34,086 nucleotides of DNA, taken from a virus. The stretch covers positions 1 through 34,086 of the IMG/VR virus record IMGVR_UViG_3300007540_000045, one strand, 5' to 3'. A program made the translations under genes and the position numbers. The notes under the pieces are model-generated. The model had not been told where the DNA came from. It saw only the letters and a program-made list of their open reading frames with translations, and did no database searches. Of this stretch, positions 2,194 to 17,628 are shown one piece after another (position 1 is the first letter of the stretch; each line of letters begins with the position of its first letter).

Positions 2194-2829
2194 ATGCCAC
2201 CAGTGGATGGTGGTGAGTACAACAAGCGGCTGTTCTACAATCAGATTAAGCAGCAGATGAAGGACACTGCTATCTTTGTGCTAACTGATTGGAGTGGCTC
2301 TATGTGTGGCAACAAGATGAACTATGCTGCTGATGCAAGTCAGCGTCTAGTGCATACGTTTGAACGTCAGCTTAGGGTGCCAGTTGCACTGGCTTTGTTC
2401 TCTAATCGCAGGTCACAGTGTGACATAGGGTATGTGAAGCGCTTCAATACCAGAGGCATTACACAGCAAGCCATTGCTGATAGGTTCTCTAAGTTCTGTA
2501 GCTACAGCTCAGGCAACAACGATGCCGATGCTGTTAACTGGGCATACAATGAACTCCTTAAACGTAAGGAGTCACGTAAGATCCTGATGGTACTCAGTGA
2601 TGGGTCACCAACGGGTAGCTATAAGGGTAACCCCGGTACTGCACTCCGCTTCGTCACTGATAAGATCCAGAAGGATCACAAGATAGAGATGTGGGGAGTA
2701 GGTATACGTAGTGAGGCAGTGAAGGGATACTATAATAACTACGTAGTGATAGATGACCCGACACAAATCAACCAAGAATTGTTTACAATTATAAAGGATG
2801 GATACAATGAGTACAGACGACACGGTTAA
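2194..2829 (+). CDS. CobT-like von Willebrand factor A domain (C-terminal half)
   Basis: The listed start is the first ATG after the internal UGA, but the homologous frame extends back without a stop to 2041, so this may not be a genuine separate start. Only a weak TAGG lies upstream of it. Counting from ATG 1006, the MIDAS metal-binding motif DWSGS is at residues 428-432 and a second acidic element, LSDGSP, has its aspartate at 532; both are typical of VWA domains. The block between the UGA and the MIDAS (RRYIQ, YSGRLNR, VRLA) looks like the conserved CobT region that leads into the VWA fold. VWA proteins of this type bind Mg2+ and pair with a MoxR/CobS ATPase, encoded here just upstream. 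If termination at the UGA is complete, re-initiation would be needed to make this half. Confidence 0.8.
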   Translation: MPPVDGGEYNKRLFYNQIKQQMKDTAIFVLTDWSGSMCGNKMNYAADASQRLVHTFERQLRVPVALALFSNRRSQCDIGYVKRFNTRGITQQAIADRFSKFCSYSSGNNDADAVNWAYNELLKRKESRKILMVLSDGSPTGSYKGNPGTALRFVTDKIQKDHKIEMWGVGIRSEAVKGYYNNYVVIDDPTQINQELFTIIKDGYNEYRRHG

Positions 2830-13293: not shown

Positions 13294-13512
13294 TTAAGTC
13301 AAGTATAGTATGTCTACCACCATGCCGTGGGGTATGAACAGTTTACCTGCTATCTCATCGAGGTCACTGTATATGTCAGTGGCAAGGACGTAACCGTACC
13401 TGTTCCTGCATATGAGATACCCTACCGTGGTGCGCCACACTGGTTCAGTAGCTACTGCTTCCTCGTAGGTGAAGTCGTCGCTTTCAATGAAGGCATCACC
13501 CCACTTGACCAC
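13294..13512 (-). CDS. Small hypothetical protein after the spanin genes, 72 aa (GTG start)
   Basis: Last gene of the leftward arm. An ATG start at 13605 is possible (103 aa) but would bury 86 bases in the Rz1 gene and add a low-complexity Ser/Gln/Thr N-terminus. GTG 13512 lies 7 bases after the Rz1 stop with TAGGAT just before it, and gives a compact protein starting VKWGDAFIESDDFTYEEA. The body (TTVGYLICRNRYGYVLATD, then IPHGMVVDILYL) resembles a small beta-rich family often seen in phages, in which a tryptophan/acidic start is followed by a TVGYL-type strand and an isoleucine-proline strand near the end. The function is unknown. There is no signal peptide or membrane segment with the GTG start. 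Confidence 0.65.
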   Translation of the reverse strand: MVKWGDAFIESDDFTYEEAVATEPVWRTTVGYLICRNRYGYVLATDIYSDLDEIAGKLFIPHGMVVDILYLT

Positions 13513-13516
13513 TGCT

Positions 13517-13522
13517 ATCCTA
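13517..13522 (-). promoter_or_regulatory. Shine-Dalgarno supporting the GTG start at 13512
   Basis: TAGGAT on the minus strand overlaps the TAG stop of the Rz1 gene. Its AGGA core lies 5 bases before GTG 13512. This favours the short 72-aa form over the ATG at 13605. Confidence 0.5.
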
Positions 13523-13822
13523 TAAGCACTTGGCTTTGAACTGTTTGTTGTGCTCTTCTGCGAGTCGCTCTGCTGTTCTAACGTAGGATTTAAGTTTGAG
13601 GTCATTGTCAGCTATCTTCCGTAGTGTTTGAGCATTGATACTCATCTGCTCTATAGTTGTTATTGGTTCTAGTGTTGGTCTGTCTGGTAAACACAATGGT
13701 TCTATGACGTTGTTAGATACACACCCACTAGAAATCATTAGGGTTGTTAAGATTATCAATCCCTTCAAAGTTGTTCTCCTTTCCTTCTTCGTGTTTTTCT
13801 TTCTCTTTGATTTGATTGACAA
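13520..13822 (-). CDS. Rz1-like outer-membrane spanin (o-spanin lipoprotein)
   Basis: A 100-residue protein with a basic N-terminal region (about 20 residues), a hydrophobic segment GLIILTTLMISSGC, and a lipobox-like cysteine at residue 34. After lipid attachment it would sit in the outer membrane. Proline residues are present after the lipobox (CLPDRPTLEPI), as in many Rz1 proteins, followed by a helical C-terminal part. It starts inside the i-spanin gene in another frame and overlaps it by 95 bases, a typical Rz/Rz1 arrangement. Together the pair spans the periplasm and fuses the membranes at the end of lysis. The long charged N-terminus before the lipobox is unusual but acceptable for a type II signal peptide. 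Confidence 0.82.
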   Translation of the reverse strand: MSIKSKRKKNTKKERRTTLKGLIILTTLMISSGCVSNNVIEPLCLPDRPTLEPITTIEQMSINAQTLRKIADNDLKLKSYVRTAERLAEEHNKQFKAKCL

Positions 13823-14030
13823 GAGTAGCTCTTCGGCTACTCTCTATGACTCTTTCTTCTTTTACAATCTTCTTCTTTACTCTCTCCGCGTGAACCGTGG
13901 CCTTGAGGTGCTCGACATCTCGTCGGGCTATGTCCCTCTGATTCTTCATCGTCCTGCTGAAGACAGCAAGCACCGTTAACAACACACCCAGTGCTGCTAC
14001 CCCATACAACTTAAGTTTCGCTAGTATCAT
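13728..14030 (-). CDS. Rz-like inner-membrane spanin (i-spanin)
   Basis: A 100-residue protein. An N-terminal transmembrane helix (about residues 6-25, LYGVAALGVLLTVLAVF) is followed by a long charged helical region (RDIARRDVEHLKATVHAER onward) predicted to form a periplasmic coiled coil. Topology and length match i-spanins. The start overlaps the end of the holin gene by 20 bases, and the Rz1-like gene is embedded partly within it. With the lipoprotein partner it should disrupt the outer membrane in the last lysis step. Confidence 0.82.
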   Translation of the reverse strand: MILAKLKLYGVAALGVLLTVLAVFSRTMKNQRDIARRDVEHLKATVHAERVKKKIVKEERVIESSRRATLVNQIKEKEKHEEGKENNFEGIDNLNNPNDF

Positions 14031-14229
14031 CAGTGTTCCCTATGGCTGTCGATGTGACAGCACGTAGTACTATGTTGACAACCCCTATCCCAAACATCCA
14101 GATAGCGTATGTGTCTGGTTCAACCAATGGTTGGAGGGTAGGGATCAACCCTACCACTCCACTTACTACCGCACCCCCGACTACAAGGAGGTTAACCCAC
14201 ATAGTCTTACTCTTATGCCATTGTTTCAA
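14011..14229 (-). CDS. Holin (TTG start)
   Basis: A 72-residue protein with two hydrophobic segments (about residues 11-29, VNLLVVGGAVVSGVVGLI, and 41-60, YAIWMFGIGVVNIVLRAV) and a polar C-terminal tail. The start WHKSKTMWVN before the first helix resembles a common family of small phage holins. The first codon is TTG at 14229, overlapping the TGA of the lipid A deacylase-like gene (TTGA), with AGGAT about 10 bases upstream; an ATG at residue 10 would cut into the conserved N-terminus. It sits directly before the spanin pair. Its role would be to open the inner membrane and time lysis. Confidence 0.75.
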   Translation of the reverse strand: MKQWHKSKTMWVNLLVVGGAVVSGVVGLIPTLQPLVEPDTYAIWMFGIGVVNIVLRAVTSTAIGNTDDTSET

Positions 14230-14705
14230 AACTCATATCCTATTGTTAGCAGGTCTTGCCCTAGGTTGGGCGATCCAGATCCTGCGTTGCTAAAGTGACG
14301 GAAACGTACGCTCCAATGTTCTCCACCGTACCCAAGTGAAAGAGCCCAAGTAAGATTCTTACCTAGTGCTCTGTTGGTATTCTGGAAATAGGCAGGGCCT
14401 ATTCCAATCTCCCACTTGTTACGTTCTATGATCCTCTGAGTAAAGAAGAATATGTTCTCCTCTAGATCAGCCGGCCATTTACAAGAGCAGTACTGCTTAG
14501 ATATATAACCACCCCCTACGTCAAACTTACCTACTCGTTCACTGATGATCAGTGCCCCGCCCTTCGAGTACTCTCCAGACAGAACCCCCATTCCTACTTC
14601 TAGTTCAGCGCTGTTGGCTTCTTCGTACAGGAAGAACACAAGCAGGAGCAGAAAGGCTCCTACTATCCACTTGCCATCTATCCCTAACTTAGAATCCTTA
14701 CCCAT
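14226..14705 (-). CDS. PagL-like lipid A 3-O-deacylase, exported outer-membrane protein
   Basis: A 159-residue protein. A polar N-terminus is followed by a hydrophobic signal (about residues 13-27) and a likely cleavage site after NSA (31-33). The remainder alternates in a beta-barrel manner and ends in GYEF, an aromatic C-terminus typical of outer-membrane barrels. The PagL signature is clear: RHFSNAG with H137 and S139, then PNLG. In Pseudomonas PagL the triad is H126, S128 and E140. The same spacing here places D151 at the glutamate position, a conservative change. The enzyme would remove the 3-O acyl chain of lipid A in the outer membrane. It is encoded between small membrane proteins and the holin, so it may weaken the outer membrane at lysis or alter LPS receptors. 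Family call is strong; timing and purpose are inferred. Confidence 0.85.
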   Translation of the reverse strand: MGKDSKLGIDGKWIVGAFLLLLVFFLYEEANSAELEVGMGVLSGEYSKGGALIISERVGKFDVGGGYISKQYCSCKWPADLEENIFFFTQRIIERNKWEIGIGPAYFQNTNRALGKNLTWALSLGYGGEHWSVRFRHFSNAGSGSPNLGQDLLTIGYEF

Positions 14706-14835
14706 CGTTCTCGCCCTTCGGGTTCACACCATCGGGCTTCTTATTAGAACGTTGCTTCTTCGCAGCGTTGCTGAGGATGACAAACATCCCAGCGACAGCC
14801 GCTATGAATACCACTACTACAAGTACTTCCTGCAT
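14698..14835 (-). CDS. Tiny single-helix membrane protein, 45 aa
   Basis: An open frame from ATG 14835 to TAA at 14698. It starts on the last base of the preceding stop (TAATG) and overlaps the deacylase-like gene by 8 bases. Residues 3-22 are strongly hydrophobic (VLVVVVFIAAVAGMFVIL), followed by a basic and polar tail (AAKKQRSNKKPDG). One membrane helix with a cytoplasmic-type basic tail fits a small holin, antiholin or membrane modulator, but no family is recognised. The tight junctions on both sides support it as a gene. Confidence 0.65.
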   Translation of the reverse strand: MQEVLVVVVFIAAVAGMFVILSNAAKKQRSNKKPDGVNPKGENDG

Positions 14836-14975
14836 TACAATACCCCCGAGTAGTATATCAATGATCCCACCGCAATAGCAACCGCTATCACTGTGAATAT
14901 AGTTTTCTTACGCTCTTTGAGCATAGCTTTACGCTTCTCCCAATACTCTATTGCTTCTTTACCATAGATAGTCAT
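14835..14975 (-). CDS. Tiny single-helix membrane protein, 46 aa
   Basis: An open frame from ATG 14975, preceded by AAGGAG about 10 bases upstream, to TAA at 14835-14837. The N-terminal half is charged and helical (EYWEKRKAMLKERKK, residues 11-25) and the C-terminal part is a membrane helix (IFTVIAVAIAVGSLIYY, residues 27-43). Charge distribution suggests N-in topology. It is coupled to the next tiny membrane gene by a TAATG overlap. The pair may form part of the lysis control module, for example as pinholin/antiholin-like proteins, but this rests only on size, topology and location. Confidence 0.65.
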   Translation of the reverse strand: MTIYGKEAIEYWEKRKAMLKERKKTIFTVIAVAIAVGSLIYYSGVL

Positions 14976-14977
14976 GC

Positions 14978-15568
14978 TTAGAAATCTCCTTCTGCATCTG
15001 TGTCTACTGTTACATCATAGGCTACTGTCAAGTCAGTGTACCCAGTCTTTCTGAACGTGATCTGAATTGTGAAACTGCCGTTGTCGAAGTCAACTCCCGG
15101 GGCTGCACTAGATGTAGCATCCATCTTGAGTCCATAGTTGACTGCGTTAGTTGGGCTAAAGAACGTTGTCTTATCATCATTGGTATACGTACCAATGGCA
15201 GCTAGTGAGATACCATTGTCAGCTACGTCAGAAGCTGAAGTATAGATGTTGATAGAATCAGGTCGTTGCCCTAAGATAAAGACATCCTGGTCTACTCCGG
15301 GAGTACCTTGACTTACATGAGAGGCATTGTACCATAACACTGTTGCGGTTACGTTGCCACTAGCGTTGCCATCTACCCGTATGTAGGCATTTGATGCATC
15401 AGTTTCTACCCATATGGAGCCATCAGCCGTAGCTGATGAGGGAGATGTCTCATAGTCTGAGGCACTGGCTTCAAGGACAGTGTTGCCTGTCTTGTGTCCT
15501 GTCTCGTCAGTGGGGTTGAAGATAAGTCCAGACCCTGCGGCCATTAGACCACCTATATCAAATAGCAT
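14978..15568 (-). CDS. Beta-rich hypothetical protein next to the tail fibre, 196 aa
   Basis: Unrecognised. ATG 15568 overlaps the tail fibre stop as TAATG; an in-frame ATG 24 bases later (residue 9, MAAGSGLIF) is preceded by AGGTGG and is also possible. The sequence is rich in Ser, Thr, Asp, Gly and Ala with alternating hydrophobics (GSIWVETD, AYIRVDG, TVLWYN, FTIQITF), suggesting an immunoglobulin-like or other beta-sandwich fold. It has no signal peptide, cysteine or catalytic motif. Such a protein beside the fibre gene is likely to be virion-attached, perhaps a fibre accessory or adhesin tip, but this is inference. Confidence 0.6.
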   Translation of the reverse strand: MLFDIGGLMAAGSGLIFNPTDETGHKTGNTVLEASASDYETSPSSATADGSIWVETDASNAYIRVDGNASGNVTATVLWYNASHVSQGTPGVDQDVFILGQRPDSINIYTSASDVADNGISLAAIGTYTNDDKTTFFSPTNAVNYGLKMDATSSAAPGVDFDNGSFTIQITFRKTGYTDLTVAYDVTVDTDAEGDF

Positions 15569-16917
15569 TAGCTGAAGTCCTGAGATACGTTACCGTACCA
15601 CGTAGTACCACCGTCGAACGTCTTAAGTGAGACTAGATCCGTGCCCGTGGTAGCCGTAGGTGTAATGGTAGGTGCTGCGCCAGCAGGCCATTTAACTGTT
15701 AGGCCACCCCATGCTACAGTCCTGCTGCCTGTGCCATCCTGCACAAACTTAATTAGGAGTTCACCGTATCGGTCACTACCAGACACGGAACTTATAGACC
15801 ACGTTGTGATGTTCTCGGTAAGAGTAATCTCTATACACTGTCCAGCGTTGTAAGATGTAGTGACAACGCCTGATGCGATAGTCTCTGTTTGCTTGGATAT
15901 GGAGTAGTCCAGCAACTCTGCTGCATTGAGCTGTGCATCCTTCATACTGAATACTGTACCACCCATCTCTATGAGACCTGTGGTAGTGCCAGTACGTGAG
16001 ATCCTAAAGGCATACCCACCATTTACATCCGCATCGGTCAAGAGGCGAGGGAAATAGAGCTGGTTACCCGTAGCGTAGCCTAGTGCCCACTTCTTGTAGT
16101 CTACTGACCCACCAGATTGTTCTACTACTATCTTAGGGACAACGTTAGTGACTTCGACGTTTCCTGTGTTACTAATGTTACCAGTAATACTAACGTTACC
16201 AGTACCAGTGACATCACTGGAGTTAAGATCGAGATCCCCACCCAACTGTGGTGTGGTGTCCTCAACTACGTTGGAAATACCACCCGCTGGGACAGCTTCC
16301 CACGCAGCTGCTCCTGCACCATCAGCAGTGAGCACGTATCCATCGGTGACTGGTCCAGTTGAGAGGACACTCGTGCCTTCCGGTGCTCCACCAGAGGGTA
16401 CAGCTTCCCAAGCTGTTGCCCCTGCTCCATCTGCGGTTAACACGTAACCATCAGTTATGGCAACCGCTGTTACGTCAGTGCCTGCGACAGCAGGAATTGC
16501 TTCCCAAGCGGAAGCATTAGCCCCGTCAGCAGTTAGAACGTAGCCATCTGCAACCCCTGTTGAGAGTACAGTAGTACCTTCATGTGCTGGTATCGCTTCC
16601 CAAACAGAAGCGTTAGCACCATCTGCTGTCAGTATATAACCATCAGTGACACCAGTTGATTTAACTGCTGTGCCTTCTGGCGTAGCCACGCTAGCTGTAA
16701 GCTGAGCGAGTGTTACCGCATCTTGGTTGTTAGTACCATCTGTTAAGTTTACTGCCTTGTTAGAGTTTAGGTCTAGGTTCGCACTCATCGTGTTCGGTGC
16801 AGTGCCATCCCTCGACAGTGTGTTTTCTAATGCTGCTTCGAGCAGGACGTTATTAGCGTTGTATGTAGCAACGCTTAAGTAACCTGCGGATACATCAGTG
16901 AGTGTGAGTTTAGCCAT
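15568..16917 (-). CDS. Tail fibre with tandem repeats
   Basis: A 449-residue protein. The N-terminal 80 residues include DGTAPNTMSANLDLNSNKAV and NNQDAVTLAQL, a segment common in phage fibre proteins. Residues 81-213 hold four copies of a 32-35 residue repeat built around DGYVLTADGA and WEA(I/V)P. Then comes a region with LGGDLDLNS and glycine/asparagine-rich strands (TGNVSITGNISNTGN), typical of fibrous beta folds. The C-terminal domain (ITTWSISSV, DRYGELLIKFVQDGTGSRTV, GGTTWYG) is similar to receptor-binding ends of other marine phage fibres. It should be trimeric and bind the host surface. The gene lies between the membrane/coiled-coil protein and the beta-rich 196-aa protein. Confidence 0.78.
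   Translation of the reverse strand: MAKLTLTDVSAGYLSVATYNANNVLLEAALENTLSRDGTAPNTMSANLDLNSNKAVNLTDGTNNQDAVTLAQLTASVATPEGTAVKSTGVTDGYILTADGANASVWEAIPAHEGTTVLSTGVADGYVLTADGANASAWEAIPAVAGTDVTAVAITDGYVLTADGAGATAWEAVPSGGAPEGTSVLSTGPVTDGYVLTADGAGAAAWEAVPAGGISNVVEDTTPQLGGDLDLNSSDVTGTGNVSITGNISNTGNVEVTNVVPKIVVEQSGGSVDYKKWALGYATGNQLYFPRLLTDADVNGGYAFRISRTGTTTGLIEMGGTVFSMKDAQLNAAELLDYSISKQTETIASGVVTTSYNAGQCIEITLTENITTWSISSVSGSDRYGELLIKFVQDGTGSRTVAWGGLTVKWPAGAAPTITPTATTGTDLVSLKTFDGGTTWYGNVSQDFS
16279..16677 (-). repeat. Four tandem coding repeats in the tail fibre gene
   Basis: Four in-frame units of about 96-105 bases encode residues 81-112, 113-144, 145-179 and 180-213 of the fibre. Each has the core DGY(I/V)LTADGA and ends in WEA(I/V)P. 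Units 1 and 2 share ADGANAS, while units 3 and 4 share ADGAGA, which suggests stepwise duplication. Confidence 0.85.
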
Positions 16918-17250: not shown

Positions 17251-17628
17251 CTATTGGTTTCCTATCAGTTCAAAGTGTGCCAAGTCCTTAAGACTTCTGA
17301 AGTGCCCGCCCCATCTAAGACGTACTCCCCGTTTAGAGGCGGCTCCCAGTACGTGAGTCGCCATTTCGTAGAATGCCTCGTCTTCAGCCGCAAACCCAAG
17401 TGGGTAAGGGATGATGTCGAAGGCTCGTGAAGGTGAGACATTGTGCTTAGACTGTCCCCACCTTGCATTAGAGTTACCTTCAGCGAAGGCTTGCTCTTGT
17501 TCCTCTCTTCCTCTGAATCCACATATAACAGAAAAATCAAAATGGTTGATCGCCTCATCGAGTACTCCTTGTAACTCTACTTCACATTGATCTCTCTTTT
17601 CTCTGGATCTTTTACCTAATGAGGGCAT
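17251..17628 (-). CDS. M15-family peptidase endolysin
   Basis: A 125-residue single-domain enzyme. Zinc ligands of the M15 (VanY-like/L-alanyl-D-glutamate peptidase) family are visible: H62 and D71 in SKHNVSPSRAFDIIPYP, and H118 in DLAHFEL, with WGGHFRSLKDL before it. Enzymes of this type cut the peptide bridges of peptidoglycan. There is no signal peptide, so release through a holin is expected. ATG 17628 overlaps the stop of the 465-aa internal protein as TAATG. The gene is separated from the holin/spanin module by the fibre and several small genes. It is about the size of the smallest phage M15 endolysins. Confidence 0.88.
   Translation of the reverse strand: MPSLGKRSREKRDQCEVELQGVLDEAINHFDFSVICGFRGREEQEQAFAEGNSNARWGQSKHNVSPSRAFDIIPYPLGFAAEDEAFYEMATHVLGAASKRGVRLRWGGHFRSLKDLAHFELIGNQ

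Follow-up and report, generated by a model that had tools for sequence, protein, structure and literature searches.

Of all the steps of phage lysis, rupture of the outer membrane is understood least, and its known players are non-enzymatic, with the spanins (Rz/Rz1) fusing membranes and the disruptins being peptides. Mycobacteriophages carry out their outer-membrane step with a lipolytic enzyme of the lysis cassette, the mycolyl-arabinogalactan esterase LysB, which is needed for efficient lysis (PMC5707550). In Salmonella, vesicle shedding rose about fourfold with active PagL but not with its inactive form, which was explained by inverted-cone lipid A and membrane curvature (PMC4958258). The characterised structure closest to the protein described below is PagL from Pseudomonas aeruginosa (PDB ID 2erv). 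The Lom/Ail-type proteins of lambdoid phages are, like the present protein, small phage-borne outer-membrane barrels near tail genes, but they have no catalytic triad and belong to an adhesin/serum-resistance family.

Here we describe an open reading frame (ORF) in the late arm of a phage genome, which very probably encodes a PagL-family outer-membrane hydrolase. The DNA analysed (IMG/VR record IMGVR_UViG_3300007540_000045) is a 34-kb fragment of 34,086 nucleotides and is called the window throughout. The protein is a predicted lipid A 3-O-deacylase, for which we infer catalytic activity and a lipid A substrate. The known enzyme family gains a further member here; the genomic context of the gene is new in the open literature searched, where we found no report of a PagL-type lipid A hydrolase together with a holin, and PHROG nowhere annotates the family as an enzyme.

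The window phage and its late arm

The window phage is a podophage that groups with the Cobavirinae (Zobellviridae): its capsid protein is 57% identical to that of Siovirus P12053L, its tail appendage is about 30% identical to the cobavirus counterpart, its early and late arms converge, and it carries CobS/CobT-like genes and a match to the ribonucleotide reductase family. The gene layout also matches that of ICBM1. No integrase was seen among the annotated genes of the 34-kb fragment. Isolates of the Cobavirinae infect marine Rhodobacteraceae (PMC6775973), and for a lytic phage with nearest isolates from such hosts, nothing points to immune evasion, one of the roles suggested in the initial annotation. 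The CobT-like gene of the window may be split or may be without its middle, as positions 1006-2040 and 2194-2829 (plus strand) both match phrog_1576, at profile positions 46-282 and 514-717, respectively.

The late-arm genes around the PagL-type ORF are as follows, G027 being a sister phage and L001 to L003 viral relatives of the PagL locus.

13294..13605, minus strand: conserved 103-aa gene at the late-arm end, with a 44% homologue convergent to PagL in L001 and L003
13520..13822, minus strand: Rz1-like small lipoprotein candidate, SSGC, Pro-rich (phrog_8971, Rz-like, E 0.0025)
13728..14030, minus strand: Rz-like inner-membrane spanin, 100 aa, N-terminal transmembrane (TM) segment and charged stretch, called from its architecture
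14011..14229, minus strand: holin-like two-TM protein, 72 aa, TTG start (phrog_1356, holin, E 1.5e-4)
14226..14705, minus strand: PagL-type outer-membrane beta-barrel hydrolase, called from Pfam, the phage-only profile, the structure model, and VIA alignment to 2erv
14698..14835, minus strand: single-TM protein, 45 aa, with a 44% homologue immediately before the holin in G027
14835..14975, minus strand: single-TM protein, 46 aa, with a homologue that also directly precedes PagL in L002
14978..15568, minus strand: 196-aa protein between the fibre and the membrane proteins (no PHROG match)
15568..16917, minus strand: tail fibre (PHROG tail fibre, E 5.9e-11)
17251..17628, minus strand: endolysin, 125 aa (phrog_465, endolysin, E 8.7e-29), with a 96% homologue in G027

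The PagL-type gene is thus encoded with holin-like, Rz-like, and Rz1-like genes. The calls for the holin and Rz are individually weak by profile but stronger by synteny with G027. The holin-like ORF reaches 22 bits for DUF7940, under the 27-bit cut-off, and has homologues of 77 to 80% identity in G027 and 48% in a second relative, G032. The Rz-like ORF matches the Rz-like phrog_4349 weakly (E 0.016) and has a 90% homologue in G027, as does the Rz1-like ORF, which overlaps Rz in another frame and has a weak lipobox, read by eye. The endolysin gene is not adjacent to PagL, being situated past the tail-fibre gene. The 46-aa membrane protein and its L002 homologue share 35% identity over 34 aa, with a score of 57 against 20 +/- 4 for shuffles. 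The viruses L001 and L003, in which the homologue of the 103-aa gene is directly convergent to PagL, are otherwise different from the window phage, and the copy in L003 aligns with the end of the DNA transfer protein phrog_1745 (E 3.5e-26).

The PagL-type ORF is 159 aa long, has an ATG start, and contains RHFSNAGSGSPNLGQD, with H137, S139, and D151, the last at +14 from the His. All motif residues of the family are present, namely, His-x-Ser-Asn (H137, S139, and N140), Asn at +10 (N147), and the acid at +14. The DNA pattern for HxSN[AV]GxxxPNxGx[DE] has 1 match in the window and none in 100 shuffles, and the Pfam family PagL (Pfam ID PF09411) matches residues 98 to 157 at 36.3 bits (E 7.4e-9), above its cut-off of 23. 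The initial annotation had recognised the motif and the spacing of PagL E140 from the sequence alone, and ORF, motif, and Pfam agree with it. It had also noted an overlap with the holin gene and two tiny membrane proteins in front of PagL, both of which are borne out: the stop codon of PagL and the TTG start codon of the holin-like ORF overlap in TTGA (14226-14229), with that start backed by homologues aligning through it in G027 and in a further relative, G004, while the 5' end overlaps the 45-aa membrane ORF by 8 nt (14698-14705), which is followed further upstream by the 46-aa one. A promoter search gave 6 sites, with 5.9 expected, and so speaks neither for nor against a promoter.

The protein has an N-terminal hydrophobic helix at about residues 11 to 27, a putative signal or anchor, and ends in ...IGYEF. 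The candidate cleavage site NSA|E is not ideal, with better sites in L001 and L002. Compared with three close homologues, L001, L002, and L118 (locus L153), about 85 to 90% of the synonymous sites differ, but only 20 to 26% of the nonsynonymous sites do. Synonymous change near saturation together with a conserved amino acid sequence indicates strong constraint (purifying selection). The shared start MGKDSKLG was considered as the mark of a wider protein family and rejected, as the other sequences matching it are unrelated.

Predicted fold and family

A phage-only sequence profile run against all PDB chains had 2erv as its sole match (E 6.5e-7), aligning H137, S139, N140, and N147 opposite H126, S128, N129, and N136 of the P. 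aeruginosa enzyme, where D151 takes the E140 position by spacing. All 18 phage-type homologues (18/18) match PagL at an E value of 0.001 or less. The AlphaFold2 model, built from 42 homologues, has a pLDDT of 90.4 and a pTM of 0.82 and shows one N-terminal helix and eight main strands. Its top Foldseek match is 2erv (E 3.6e-5), and VIA-align superposes the two over 117 residues with a Z score of 17.7, an rmsd of 1.3 Å, and 25% identity, the runners-up being OmpA (Z 15.0, 2.8 Å) and PagP (Z 12.8, 3.6 Å). The comparison with Pseudomonas PagL that was proposed in the initial annotation thus gives a predicted eight-stranded outer-membrane barrel with 2erv as its best match. The viral structure library holds other phage-borne barrels, with no named PagL among them.

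The window protein and 2erv share the eight-stranded barrel, the HxSN...N...acid motif at identical spacing, and the C-terminal aromatic residue. The window protein differs in being phage-borne, in having Asp for Glu140 at about 25% overall identity, in its long hydrophilic n-region before the hydrophobic helix, and in a CxC pair in a loop, besides its location in a lysis operon. The low identity to characterised PagL in the structural alignment and the Asp in place of Glu140 would also suit a barrel descended from PagL whose acyl substrate is a different one, such as a phospholipid, ornithine lipid, or sphingolipid of the host, or that is non-catalytic, and substrate specificity cannot be read from a sequence. 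We regard this as improbable, given that the H, S, N, N, and D residues are kept in L001 to L004 despite saturated synonymous change. A lipid A 3-O-deacylase is the reading that we carry forward, with the Asp as third catalytic residue counting against it.

The only PHROG that matches any of the 42 viral PagLs is phrog_15758 (9 members, best E 7.8e-111), which has no functional name and can be annotated as PagL-like. A distinct group of short PagL-motif ORFs (L062, L070, L080, L093, L095, and L102) carries ELPxxxxFxxG...HLSNAGxxxPNIGxD, apparently without a normal signal peptide.

The empty site in close relatives and a proposed role at lysis

The near-complete sister phage G027 (45.4 kb) has 96% identity to the window in the capsid protein and the endolysin, 90% in Rz and Rz1, and 77 to 80% in the holin. 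Its gene order, fibre, 50-aa TM protein, holin, Rz, and Rz1, provides the exact empty site, and PagL is absent from the whole 45.4-kb record. The 45-aa single-TM protein of the window is native to the locus in this sister phage. PagL is likewise absent at that site in the 28-kb fragment G032 and in G004 (capsid 85 to 89%), which has holin, Rz, and Rz1 there. G004 bears a 43% identical PagL at the opposite late-arm end, where it is preceded by a gene that we read as small-terminase-like (its match, phrog_8035, is without functional assignment) and followed by a 776-aa protein, tailspike-like as read from the sequence. We found no support for the idea that the cultured cobaviruses carry a different outer-membrane enzyme at the PagL spot.

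Because the three relatives G027, G032, and G004 are without PagL at holin-Rz-Rz1, the window gene is an accessory insertion at the variable junction of fibre and lysis genes, not a core lysis gene. The lysis cassette therefore works without PagL in G027, and any effect of the enzyme would therefore be conditional on the host or the environment. The initial annotation had proposed a fourth component of lysis. The position inside the lysis module and the recurrence beside lysis genes in unrelated phages (see below) speak for this idea, which does not hold in the sense of a core part.

What the enzyme could contribute may be outlined as follows. PagL would be read late, from the tightly overlapped minus-strand operon with the holin-like and Rz/Rz1-like genes, and, once exported, would fold into an eight-stranded outer-membrane barrel. 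H137, S139, and D151, with N147 for the oxyanion, would remove the 3-O-linked acyl chain from lipid A by hydrolysis. The trimmed, less conical lipid A may lead to positive curvature and blebbing, softening the outer membrane while holin and endolysin act, on top of the spanins. We give an even chance at best to this account, in which an accessory lipid A 3-O-deacylase, presumably made late, contributes to lysis by weakening or curving the outer membrane. The Rz/Rz1-like pair that the window phage already has counts against it, as does the siting of the G004 PagL away from lysis genes.

The nearest functional counterpart is LysB, which is also lipolytic, lysis-cassette encoded, and directed at an outer membrane. 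LysB is, however, an unrelated protein that cuts mycolate esters and has been shown to be needed for lysis, whereas the window PagL is a sequence prediction. Spanins and disruptins have the outer-membrane barrier at lysis as a common target with PagL, but neither is an enzyme.

Recurrence of PagL in D-type phage records

At least 119 viral stretches match the motif DNA pattern, and 43 viral stretches match with Asp at the third motif position (D-type, as opposed to Glu in the E-type). Related-locus searches (single protein and A1), which make no use of the motif, returned four viral relatives only, L001 to L004, and no relative in the genome collection. With six PagL queries, tblastn found no credible relative among 50,697 GenBank phages, one query yielding just matches to endonucleases at E = 2.

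Among the three close viral homologues, the order endolysin-PagL-holin is found in one, L118, where an M15 endolysin (phrog_894, 3.6e-41) precedes PagL and a holin-like protein follows. Further D-type records have an M15 endolysin and Rz upstream of PagL (L065, L114, and L124), a holin-like protein and Rz downstream (L133), an Rz1-like protein downstream (L018), or PagL loosely near lysis genes (L026). Overall, of 21 D-type phage records analysed closely, about 6 have PagL near lysis genes, and others have it near terminase, tail-tip, or early genes; the association with lysis genes is, on informal judgement, not clearly above chance. One or a few genes away from PagL, several phages (L004, at 382-759, L032, L137, and L142) encode a protein that combines an N-terminal TM segment with an Ig/fibronectin-like repeat of the NxSWTNP type.

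The neighbourhoods also bring in the main rival to a lysis role, namely, that a late lipid A deacylase remodels the host surface by altering or shedding lipopolysaccharide (LPS), blocking re-adsorption to the dying cell and its debris or excluding a second phage. PagL is often near receptor-binding genes, such as the fibre in the window, an 832-aa fibre-like protein in L002, and a fibre in L133, with J-like tail-tip proteins in L018 and L111 and a tailspike-like protein in L004. In the window, the PagL block coincides with a fibre whose first 40 aa are 82% identical to G027, falling to about 53% and then to 30% or less, a pattern as after a distal swap. Surface remodelling accounts equally well for the fibre neighbourhood and is a live rival, but 3-O-deacylation spares the core and O-chain sugars of LPS, which are the usual phage receptors, and fibre and lysis genes adjoin in many phages regardless. 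The constant neighbour of PagL in the E-type prophages, moreover, is a holin or small membrane protein (see below), and overall we consider remodelling unlikely.

Recurrence of PagL in temperate prophages

The E-type set (L016 to L143) comprises 82 temperate prophage records among the matches listed, with PagL in the interval between Q and terminase. These proteins are close to 2erv (E 1e-67), and the label Pseudomonas-type, which we use for the prophages, rests on that similarity. The typical order is Q antiterminator, PagL, holin or Rz-like gene, HNH, and small terminase. Q (phrog_79, 2e-30) lies within about 3.5 kb upstream of PagL in 22 of the 57 records with enough upstream sequence. In the 54 records that extend at least 2.6 kb downstream of PagL, it is followed in 53 by a holin, a small Rz-like protein, or a small membrane protein, namely, a PHROG holin in 21, phrog_6065 in 28, and phrog_13520 in 4 (none in 1); these 54 hold 39 distinct downstream regions, kin prophages each being counted. 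The possibility that the E-type PagLs are host genes flanking prophages was rejected, as their neighbourhoods put them between Q and terminase. The E-type and window PagLs belong to the same family and share the position upstream of holin-type genes, whereas the Glu at the third position, the closeness to 2erv, the temperate phage, and the Q-to-terminase interval set the E-type apart.

Such a location might instead mark PagL as a cargo (moron) gene that mainly helps the lysogen or host, for example, by endotoxin masking or membrane stress tolerance. Cargo genes of lambdoid phages are known to occupy the Q-to-holin interval, and an integrase is present in all E-type records tested (8/8). The window phage, on the other hand, sits in a lytic group with no integrase seen among its annotated genes, and its PagL overlaps both late-operon neighbours, leaving little room for a promoter of its own, which makes a cargo role very improbable.

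The recurrence beside lysis genes, in L118 and in the E-type prophages, supports a contribution of PagL to lysis. We tentatively put forward, while regarding it as rather doubtful, that PagL-type lipid A hydrolases were acquired repeatedly by phages with Gram-negative hosts to serve in lysis as accessory enzymes, a counterpart of LysB. If true, this would be a holin-timed enzymatic attack on the outer leaflet, alongside or replacing spanins, used by lytic marine podophages as well as by temperate phages of the Pseudomonas type. Produced together with the holin, a lipid A hydrolase would then provide an enzymatic route for opening tough outer membranes, and the acylation state of the LPS released at lysis would be altered. 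The E-type prophages make a role at lysis testable in culturable bacteria.

The membrane-protein modules that follow PagL in the E-type prophages, PHROG holins, phrog_6065, and the phrog_13520 membrane protein, are alternatives, and a PHROG holin and phrog_6065 never occur together (n = 54). The phrog_6065 protein, for example, at L071 2182-2517, has 112 aa, an N-terminal TM segment, and a weak similarity to Rz (E 1e-3), and it may be an i-spanin.
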